Positions 29,854 through 36,846 of a DNA stretch of 37,157 nucleotides are shown here, one piece after another (within the stretch, counting starts at the first letter, position 1; the number at the start of each line of letters is the position of its first letter). The DNA is from Bdellovibrio sp. GTDB lineage: Bacteria > Bdellovibrionota > Bdellovibrionia > Bdellovibrionales > Bdellovibrionaceae. The position numbers and the translations under genes were made by a program. The notes beneath the pieces are model-generated. The model had not been told where the DNA came from, searched no databases, and worked only from the letters and a program-made list of their open reading frames with translations. Location: positions 1 through 37,157 of the forward strand of contig JANYDD010000030.1 of NCBI GenBank assembly GCA_025359945.1, read 5' to 3'.

Positions 29854-30405
29854 TTACAAGAGCTTCACTTTCCAAGTGGCTTCTAAAATGGATTTCCACT
29901 CGTGAACCACGGAAGCCATTAAATCTTCGCCAAATTTTTTTGGATCTATCCCAAATTCCGACAGACAACACGTCGGCACCGGAGTGCCCTCGTTTGAAAT
30001 ATTTAGAGCTAAATGAATTTTTGCACTGACCGAAGAAATAGCCGCAATTGAAATACTTAATTTTCTTTTCTCGAAATAAAGATCGTCGCCCTGGCGGTCC
30101 AACGAAATCTGATATTCGGATTGTATGGTTTTTTGGGCCATGCAAACCATCAGCCGCTGAAGCGTCACCGCTAGCGGAAATGACTGATGGAAAACTTCCA
30201 CAATAAAATGCAGCATATCTGCGCCTTGAATTTTTTGGTGCGCACGCAGATCTTCGATATCCAAAATATTTTCAGCGGGAATTTGGCAAGGCCCCCTGAA
30301 TGCGACAATTGAATCGCCCATGACGCCAAAATTCTGATAGGTCCAAATCGGATTCATTTGAAGGCCATCGTACTTTATCGCTTGATCTAGCCACTGATGC
30401 TTCAC
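29854..30405 (-). CDS. DUF366 family protein, linked to queuosine genes
   Basis: A 183-residue protein that matches the DUF366 family as I know it: IWTYQNFGVMGDSIVAFRGPC (about 20-40), LDIEDLRA, DMLHFIVEVFHQSF (about 63-76), LQRLMVCM, RQGDDLYFEKRKLSISIAAISSVSAKIHLALN (about 104-135). Many charged and aromatic residues in these blocks are family-conserved, suggesting an enzyme, but the reaction is unknown to me. Its start codon overlaps the queC stop as ATGA (30402-30405). It is the last gene of the queA-to-queC operon, which points to a role in deazaguanine (preQ0/queuosine) metabolism. This functional link is inference. Confidence 0.85.
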   Translation of the reverse strand: MKHQWLDQAIKYDGLQMNPIWTYQNFGVMGDSIVAFRGPCQIPAENILDIEDLRAHQKIQGADMLHFIVEVFHQSFPLAVTLQRLMVCMAQKTIQSEYQISLDRQGDDLYFEKRKLSISIAAISSVSAKIHLALNISNEGTPVPTCCLSEFGIDPKKFGEDLMASVVHEWKSILEATWKVKLL

Positions 30406-31094
30406 AAAGATCTCCGAAATCCAAACACTTGGTTATTTAAAAATGCGCTCTCGGCGCGCTGACACGATTCACATCGCCCACACCATTTGGCGCGGCCCAA
30501 ATAACAAGGCCAAATCAAGTCCCAATTGACCTCTAAAGACTCTCCTAATTTAACAATCTGAGTTTTATTTAAACCAATCGTATAACAATGAATTCTGGCA
30601 TGGTTTCTAGTTGAAAATAAAAAGGAATCATTCACTTTTTTTAAATATTTGAATGAGTTGTCTGGAAACGTTTGTGCTTCTTCTTTGTTAAACCCTGGAA
30701 TGATCAAATCAATATTCATGCTGTCCGCATAGGCCCCCGCCACGTTTAAAAAAACACCATTGCGATTGGGAACCCAAACACTTTTTGCAGACTTTTGACT
30801 GGTCTTAAAGTCTTTGATTTTAACTTGAGATCCAGAGGGTATTTTTTTATCCCCACGGGTTAAACTGGATCCCGAAATATCTGCCAAAAAAGGAAGCGCG
30901 ACTGATTTCCAAGCAATTCCCAGCTGGGCACAAATTTTTTTTGAACACTCAATTTCTTTTTTGGCCGCTTTTTGGCCGTAATTAAAGGTCAGCGCTAATT
31001 TCACTTTAGTATTCTTCAGCGCACAGTAAACATTAACCGTGGAGTCCAATCCTCCACTTAGCAAAACTAGTGACGACTTCTTTCTAACATTCAT
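30402..31094 (-). CDS. queC: 7-cyano-7-deazaguanine (preQ0) synthase QueC
   Basis: Makes preQ0 from 7-carboxy-7-deazaguanine using ATP and ammonia, a step toward queuosine in tRNA. The start is ATG 31094, giving 230 residues; the open frame further upstream is secF sequence in another phase. Motifs are the PP-loop SGGLDST (13-19), FNYGQKAAKKE, WVPNRNGVFL (PNRN 109-112) and the zinc ligands Cys197, Cys205, Cys208 and Cys211 in PCY and CGRCESC, followed by RAESAF. All are intact. The start overlaps the secF stop as ATGA (31091-31094), and its own stop overlaps DUF366 the same way. queD, queE and queF are not in the window. Confidence 0.96.
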   Translation of the reverse strand: MNVRKKSSLVLLSGGLDSTVNVYCALKNTKVKLALTFNYGQKAAKKEIECSKKICAQLGIAWKSVALPFLADISGSSLTRGDKKIPSGSQVKIKDFKTSQKSAKSVWVPNRNGVFLNVAGAYADSMNIDLIIPGFNKEEAQTFPDNSFKYLKKVNDSFLFSTRNHARIHCYTIGLNKTQIVKLGESLEVNWDLIWPCYLGRAKWCGRCESCQRAESAFLNNQVFGFRRSL

Positions 31095-32020
31095 GTCGCC
31101 GGATTTTTTCGCAGTTTTTCCATAAAAATCACAAACGGCGCGGCCACATAAATCGAAGAGTAGGTTCCAAATACAATCCCTATGCAAATAGCAAAGGCGA
31201 TGTCTGAAACAGTTCCACCAGCAAATAAGTACAAGCAAAGCGCAGAAATAAAGGTGGTGCCCGAAGTAATAATCGTTCGTTCAACCATATCGTTGATCGC
31301 TCGGTTGATAATAAAGTTAATACCCCGATCTTTGTATAGATGCTCGGTTTCGCGGATACGATCAAACACCACGATCGTATCGTTCAACGAATAACCAATC
31401 AAAGTCAAAATCGCCGCCAGAATGGGAATATTTACTTCTTTACCGACCAAAACAAAAATCGCTAAAGTGATCACGGCATCGTGAAACAAACAGATCACTG
31501 CACCCGGGGCGTACTTGTAATCAAAACGAAGCGCGATATAAATCAGAATAACTAACAAACAATAAAAAACCGCCAAAAACCCATTGCGTTTCAGTTGTGC
31601 CCCCACCTGAGGACCGACGGAATCAACTCGGCGGATCTCTGGCGCATAAGCTTTTAAATCTGTTTCAATCGCGGCTTTCAATCGGGCCGTCGATTGGTTC
31701 TGTTTTTCATTGGTTTCTTTGTCAGTTTTTCCGTTTTCGGTTTGAAAACGAATAATAAATTCGTCTCCTTCTCCGAAAGCTTGCAAACCCACATTCAAAA
31801 GATTTTGTTTGTCGGCGACGGCGCGAACTTCGTCGATAGAAACTTTTTTATTCATTTTAACTTGAACTTCGGTGCCGCCGGTAAAATCAATACCGTAAGA
31901 CACACCATGCAAGGCCAAGTAAACCAGGGATGCGACTACAAAAAGGACCGAGATTCCACCAAAAATTCCAATTTTGCCGACGAAATCAAACCGGCCAAAA
32001 GATTCTATCTGCTTTTTCAT
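31091..32020 (-). CDS. secF: Protein-export membrane protein SecF
   Basis: A 309-residue RND-type subunit of the SecDF complex, which uses the proton gradient to help pull secreted proteins across the inner membrane. TM1 is about 16-36. The first periplasmic domain begins GVSYGIDFTGGTEVQVKM, the family signature. The membrane domain follows from about 145, with GFLAVFYCLLVILIYIALRFDYKYAPGA, LTLIGYSLNDTIVVFDRIRE (about 217-236) and RTIITSGTTFISALCLYLFAGG. AAAGG lies about 8 nt before the ATG. It follows secD by 11 nt and is coupled to queC by ATGA. Confidence 0.97.
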   Translation of the reverse strand: MKKQIESFGRFDFVGKIGIFGGISVLFVVASLVYLALHGVSYGIDFTGGTEVQVKMNKKVSIDEVRAVADKQNLLNVGLQAFGEGDEFIIRFQTENGKTDKETNEKQNQSTARLKAAIETDLKAYAPEIRRVDSVGPQVGAQLKRNGFLAVFYCLLVILIYIALRFDYKYAPGAVICLFHDAVITLAIFVLVGKEVNIPILAAILTLIGYSLNDTIVVFDRIRETEHLYKDRGINFIINRAINDMVERTIITSGTTFISALCLYLFAGGTVSDIAFAICIGIVFGTYSSIYVAAPFVIFMEKLRKNPAT

Positions 32021-34129: not shown

Positions 34130-36369
<2,240 letters not shown>

Positions 36370-36382
36370 CGACGTTGGATAT

Positions 36383-36414
36383 AAAAAAAGCGGAAGCTTT
36401 TATCAAGCTTCCGC
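36383..36414 (-). terminator. Strong rho-independent terminator just upstream of queA
   Basis: A perfect 10-bp inverted repeat, GCGGAAGCTT (36390-36399) and AAGCTTCCGC (36405-36414), with a 5-nt loop. On the minus strand it is followed by seven T residues (36383-36389). The plus strand has no T-tract after the stem, so the terminator works in the minus direction, toward queA, whose ATG is 13 nt further on. Confidence 0.88.
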
Positions 36415-36504
36415 CTCAAAAGAAAGTTCAAGGGAACCACCTAAACCTGGAACTCTCTTATAAAACATGAACCGAACAACCCATGTGAATTTCAAGGAGG
36501 ACAT
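36403..36504 (-). CDS. Possible 33-residue leader peptide running into the terminator
   Basis: Opens at ATG 36504 and ends at TGA 36405-36403, inside the queA-proximal terminator hairpin. The product begins MSSLKFTWVVRFMFYKRVPG and ends FEAEA. A translating ribosome would cover the 5' arm of the terminator. No Shine-Dalgarno is seen, and the start lies within a stable hairpin, so translation is doubtful. Confidence 0.2.
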   Translation of the reverse strand: MSSLKFTWVVRFMFYKRVPGLGGSLELSFEAEA

Positions 36505-36679
36505 CACATGATTTAGAACTAAAAATTACGCTCTTTAAACCGAGCTCCTATCGGAAGCCCGAGCTTTCATCCGTGAAACCTCAAACTCCACTCTTTCTTG
36601 ACTTCGGTTTCTTCATCCTGAATCAACCGCTCATGCTTAAAAGACAGGCATGCCAGCCCGATGGGTTAACGCCCGGGAA

Positions 36680-36708
36680 ATAAAATTTTATTTTTTTAAA
36701 AGTGACAA
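36680..36708 (-). promoter_or_regulatory. Candidate promoter for the queA leader RNA
   Basis: On the minus strand, TTGTCA (36708-36703, 5/6 to the -35 consensus) and TTTTAT (36685-36680, 4/6) are separated by exactly 17 nt in an A/T-rich stretch. Transcription would begin near 36673 and proceed toward queA. It is divergent from tRNA-Leu. Confidence 0.5.
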
Positions 36709-36761
36709 AAAGATTGGATCCAGGGCATCTTTAAAGGCTTAAAAGCCCTTCCCTAAAGTTT

Positions 36762-36846
<85 letters not shown>

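Follow-up and report, generated by a model that had tools for sequence, protein, structure and literature searches.

A family-wide RNA gene of the Bdellovibrionaceae with GGA-loop hairpins is a candidate CsrA sponge

Results

A strongly folded RNA is encoded between tRNA-Leu(GAG) and queA

The window, by which we mean the whole stretch of 37,157 nucleotides from a Bdellovibrio sp. contig that we analysed, carries on its minus strand a run of seven genes. As an earlier note on this DNA had described, queA leads the run, and six same-strand genes come after it: tgt, yajC, secD, secF, a queC-like gene and a DUF366-like gene, names that reflect our reading of the translated open reading frames. 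The last two (29854-31238, minus strand) come after secDF, and queuosine genes therefore flank the sec genes in one run.

The same note had placed about 290 nt of strongly folded RNA ahead of queA, ending in a perfect 10-bp hairpin and seven U just 13 nt before the start codon. The folding was borne out: a 303-nt RNA from this place has a predicted energy of -102.1 kcal/mol, compared to -82.4 (sd 5.2) for dinucleotide shuffles (z -3.8, 0/100 as low). The terminator is also present, with a perfect 10-bp stem of GCGGAAGCUU and AAGCUUCCGC (36414-36405 with 36399-36390, minus strand), a GAUAA loop, U7 at 36389-36383, and 13 nt from there to the queA ATG at 36369. No Shine-Dalgarno sequence is visible in those 13 nt (36370-36382, minus strand). 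The parts of the locus are as follows.

36762..36846, plus strand: tRNA-Leu(GAG), an Rfam match and conserved neighbour, head-to-head with the RNA gene
36717..36724, minus strand: CCTGGATC, resembling a CC-T-R-G-A-Y element in a by-eye reading of the upstream alignment
36383..36669, minus strand: sRNA gene, from UUAACC to the end of the terminator U-run (287 nt), with homologues family-wide
36663..36669, minus strand: conserved 5' element UUAACCC (UUAACC in 51/56 copies, a count that carries no evidence because the copies were anchored on UUAACC; the evidence is its neighbourhood)
36605..36629, minus strand: GGA hairpin 1, CGGUU..UUC(AGGAU)GAA..AACCG, closing-pair probability 0.97, GGA unpaired 0.99
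36565..36578, minus strand: GGA hairpin 2, UUUC(ACGGAU)GAAA, a canonical ANGGAN hexaloop with a probability of only 0.17 in the full-length fold
36540..36554, minus strand: possible GGA hairpin 3, CCGA(UAGGAGC)UCGG, with a non-canonical 7-nt loop
36482..36510, minus strand: linker hairpin CAUGUGA..UCACAUG, read from the sequence
36501-36494, minus strand: CUCC element UCCUCCUU, inside the linker-hairpin loop
36420..36459, minus strand: signature hairpin, closing-pair probability 0.90, with a stem that covaries between genera
36445-36434, minus strand: loop of the signature hairpin, UUUAGGUGGUUC
36383..36414, minus strand: intrinsic terminator of the sRNA, with a stem that covaries in homologues
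35260..36369, minus strand: queA, which comes next after the RNA gene here and in several further genera, though not in Bdellovibrio

The true 5' end of the sRNA may lie up to ~40 nt upstream of UUAACC (36669). It is uncertain because a scan with the sigma-70 consensus does not back the promoter that the earlier note had proposed at 36708-36680. By eye, a CCTGGAY/CCTAGAC-like (CC-T-R-G-A-Y) element is seen in many genera and most copies, 28-56 nt 5' of UUAACC; it is possibly a -35 or other promoter element, or an activator site.

Homologues across the family share a covarying 3' end

Searching 100 related genomes with blastn, we recovered just the 3'-terminal 65 nt, before queA in one other genus. 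We also compared 60 queA-upstream regions among the relatives, as the earlier note had advised, and found the hairpins and terminator in many genera. Their common layout is UUAACC, GGA-loop hairpins, a linker that may include a small ORF, what we call the signature hairpin, which has a UUUGGUGGUUC loop, and the terminator. A pattern search placed the signature hairpin in almost all genomes of the family, in most cases as a single copy, and also in genomes where other sequence precedes queA. At signature-hairpin places that are not in front of queA, the rest of the RNA was seen again.

We take genome G036 to be B. bacteriovorus HD100, and hence the family to be the Bdellovibrionaceae. The c-di-GMP-I riboswitch of G036 matches the published merRNA of HD100 in place and strand (PMC3627812). 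We built a covariance model for the 3' hairpin together with the terminator on 28 sequences, leaving out the window copy and most copies of g3 and g5. It has a match in 55/66 Bdellovibrionaceae genomes at E <= 0.001, including copies outside the model building. As this model, built without the window sequence, finds the window copy at E = 4.3e-5, the 3' end in the window is more than chance. The RNA occurs once per genome except in G011 (contigs C44 and C57) and G040 (contigs C1 and C135). Each of these has two queA and two RNA copies, which reflect either a duplication or two strains in one assembly.

In the covariance-model search, genera g11, g16, g17, g18 and g20 seem to be without the RNA, and outside the family, in the order and the class, nothing convincing was found. 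Model matches in G065 (outside the family) and G044 (inside it) proved to be plain terminators and were rejected, as were pattern matches outside the family in G064, G065, G085, G079 and G122, where the other features of the RNA are absent. A candidate match in G069, also outside the family, scores E 0.004. Beside tRNA-Leu(GAG) in genomes without a match, there are no GGA hairpins in G016 and G017, and the G044 contig ends there. Members range from 184 to ~400 nt in length; the smallest, in G039 (184 nt), keeps two ANGGAN hairpins, the signature hairpin (the GGUGG hairpin) and the terminator.

The signature hairpin has the form GG-UUUGGUGGUUC-CC, on a stem that covaries between genera. Across the 3' hairpin and terminator, standard pairs fill 82% of pair cells, compared to 66.9% in shuffles. 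The covariation score, a check that the earlier note had called for, is 0.478 versus 0.200 in shuffled alignments (0/500 as high) and 0.06-0.19 in slid registers, and a count over 44 distinct GGUGG-hairpin stems agrees. The invariance of the loop is partly a product of selection, since its pattern served to collect the copies; G060 shows a small loop variant. We also considered pairing between the 5' UUAACC and the GGUU of the signature loop, but both sides are invariant.

The RNA gene is separable from queA

The earlier note had offered two readings of this RNA, an independent sRNA or, as its preference, an attenuator or riboswitch-like element that acts in cis on the queA operon. The second draws on proximity: the terminator ends only 13 nt before queA in the window and 21-85 nt before it in most linked genomes, with queA within 100 nt downstream in several genera. 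However, the RNA and its terminator are kept where queA is far off or on the other strand. The distance from RNA to queA is 282, 463, 495, 643, 1065, 1254 and 1255 nt in G029, G035, G052, G012, G006, G023 and G054, respectively; in HD100, queA is ~23 kb away on the opposite strand, and in G043 the two are also on opposite strands. tRNA-Leu(GAG) lies upstream in most copies with enough flanking DNA, usually head-to-head with the RNA. Because linkage to queA is lost while linkage to tRNA-Leu(GAG) is kept, the RNA gene is separable from queA.

The proposed antiterminator was not conserved either. Its upstream segment, GCUUCCG, does exist (36558-36552, minus strand), but in just one relative does the RNA match its own terminator arm over 7 nt, and across the relatives the matches are about as long as those in shuffled sequence. 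In Rfam, the window RNA matches no family at gathering score except the neighbouring tRNA, and no preQ1, SAM or T-box model. As queA linkage is lost and the antiterminator is not conserved, we rejected a queA attenuator or riboswitch as the main function and regard it as very improbable. What stands is the independent sRNA; regulated termination for a queuosine operon does not. We are nearly certain that the RNA is an independent gene specific to the Bdellovibrionaceae, and infer that it is expressed. Leaky termination is a possible influence on queA in cis where queA follows closely, and transcription of queA in the window would depend on read-through or on a promoter within the RNA gene.

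CsrA-type GGA sites recur in hairpin loops

Usually, 1-4 hairpins per RNA have ANGGAN or AGGAU loops. The hairpin with an ANGGAN hexaloop is a known target of CsrA and is contacted by RsmE, and the winners of CsrA SELEX mostly had six-nucleotide loops with GGA (PMC7652899). Since the copies are related, per-copy statistics are not independent; counting one RNA per genus, which reduces kinship without removing it, we find 24 strict sites in 14 genera compared to 1.26 expected (0/1000 shuffles). The reverse strand has 0 strict sites, and queA-upstream regions without the RNA have a mean of 0.06. ANGGAN falls in hexaloops closed by at least 4 bp in 57/154 distinct contexts, versus 282/10932 (2.6%) for other hexamers. 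The flanking stems vary (25 distinct flank pairs) while the loop stays. The first site is mostly 42-51 nt past UUAACC, and the next sites are mostly 26-39 nt apart.

The window itself has one strict site, and only its AGGAU hairpin is predicted at high probability; in G008 (g9), the strict count is zero. The window holds a divergent copy, and the argument draws on the family as a whole. Among the 66 family genomes, 65 encode csrA and 63 encode fliW, near csrA. The CsrA sequence of the source genome itself was also read.

The linker holds a small ORF or a CUCC element

In g2, g3, g6, g10, g13, g14, g19 and one g4 genome, the linker contains a conserved small ORF (FCxFYSGVVxxxLWxT) of ~38 residues with a purine-rich site upstream. 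It lies at 1346-1468 of L101 and at corresponding places in L048, L049, L051, L093 and others, and in HD100 its product starts MTDLQDVAMFCLFYSGVVMYALWITVAR. Changes by codon position number 2981/1594/6011, and are thus concentrated at position 3. The product, which has no Pfam or NCBIfam match, is probably a single-pass membrane peptide. Although many relatives have this ORF, it is absent from the window RNA, g5, g8, g12, g15, G003 and G039.

An anti-Shine-Dalgarno-like CUCC element is found in the linkers of 15/19 RNAs examined, compared to 1.4 expected. Mostly UUCUCCUU or UCCUCC, it occurs in the ORF-lacking window, g5, g8, g12 and g15 and also in g10, g14 and g19, and is absent from g3 and most of g6. 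Ribosome-binding sites, or the GGA motifs of the RNA itself, are possible pairing partners.

Discussion

The anatomy of the RNA, together with the co-occurrence of csrA, suggests that its main action is probably the sequestration of CsrA. Its ANGGAN and AGGAU loops would bind CsrA dimers and, in the manner of CsrB and RsmZ in gammaproteobacteria, draw CsrA off mRNAs; production of the RNA would thereby relieve CsrA control. Counting against a sponge, the sites are few (1-4 per RNA), the window has a single strict one, and five genera of the Bdellovibrionaceae carry csrA but no detectable copy of the RNA. A second function would probably come from the GGUGG hairpin together with the small ORF or the CUCC element, depending on the genus, as in the dual-function McaS. 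We tentatively propose, while leaning somewhat against the full combination, that the RNA is an undescribed family-wide dual-function CsrA sponge working alongside FliW, CsrB-like outside the gammaproteobacteria, to which some genera add a conserved membrane micro-peptide and others an anti-Shine-Dalgarno-like element.

The RNA might instead be a base-pairing sRNA that meets its target mRNAs through the CUCC element and the near-invariant UUUGGUGGUUC loop; CsrA binding would then be secondary or would regulate the RNA itself. That the signature loop is the most conserved part, and that most linkers carry CUCC, are consistent with this. However, the GGA hairpins are kept while their stems change, some genera lack CUCC, and the loop invariance owes something to how copies were collected; we consider this reading unlikely. 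The conservation of the ORF, with its purine-rich upstream site and its codon-position pattern, would also fit a molecule that is mainly an mRNA for the small membrane peptide, with the GGA hairpins as a CsrA-controlled 5' leader. Yet where the ORF is absent, the GGA and GGUGG hairpins and the terminator remain, which makes a primarily coding role quite improbable. A single-copy, family-wide gene adjoining a tRNA gene might instead be a divergent housekeeping RNA (6S, SRP RNA, RNase P RNA or tmRNA), but neither the window RNA nor five relatives have an Rfam match, the length varies more than twofold, and 6S RNA is encoded elsewhere in the genome (G000:C90), so that we rejected identity with 6S RNA and give the housekeeping reading almost no weight.

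As a candidate sponge, the RNA resembles CsrB/CsrC of E. coli and RsmX/Y/Z of Pseudomonas in having repeated GGA-loop hairpins, ANGGAN hexaloops and an intrinsic terminator, and in being a trans-encoded single gene. It differs from them in lying outside the gammaproteobacteria, in coexisting with FliW, in its few sites where CsrB has 22 GGA, in its signature GGUGG hairpin, and in the small ORF of many members. The window RNA and five relatives match no Csr or Rsm family of Rfam even at a relaxed threshold. Csr sRNAs under GacA/UvrY control have an upstream TGTAAG-N6-CTTACA box; none is present near the presumed promoter region in the window, and relatives have at least 3 mismatches to this consensus. 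McaS and GadY of E. coli also have few CsrA-binding GGA sites and a possible second, base-pairing function (PMC7652899), but they are unrelated in sequence and have another taxonomic range, and in the present RNA a small ORF can occupy the linker position. The 3' ends of two members gave a sub-threshold match to SorX (RF02784; 21.6 bits versus a cut-off of 46.6), in which the alignment covers mostly the terminator and leaves the first stem unaligned, and we rejected it.

CsrA, which often governs lifestyle decisions, is described as under the restraint of sponge sRNAs in many gammaproteobacteria, with FliW taking that part elsewhere. In this family, HD100 included, a candidate CsrA sponge accompanies csrA and fliW. 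BarA-UvrY, the driver of sponge sRNAs, and FliW are strongly anti-correlated (PMC4682653), and a 2020 review left it undecided whether any species has FliW and sRNAs acting jointly on CsrA (PMC7652899). As FliW is encoded in these genomes, the RNA bears on this question, and the co-occurrence of all three genes in a family that includes HD100 makes it directly testable. If our reading is true, then a CsrA sponge exists in bacteria thought to control CsrA with FliW alone.

Other small RNAs are known from the same organisms. Eight attack-phase sRNAs have been reported for HD100, and the absence of the present RNA from among them counts against our reading, though that list is restricted to attack-phase-specific RNAs; merRNA has been proposed as a sponge for c-di-GMP (PMC3627812). 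Unlike these, our RNA lies at different places and is without a c-di-GMP aptamer. A literature search, which covered few subscription journals, returned nothing on sRNAs linked to CsrA in Bdellovibrio. HD100 is a laboratory strain that switches between a swimming, hunting state and growth within its prey, and CsrA often governs lifestyle decisions of this kind. On the plus strand of HD100, the RNA occupies ~2,159.85-2,160.18 kb; tRNA-Leu(GAG) lies next to it, and a carboxylate-amine-ligase-like gene is found downstream.
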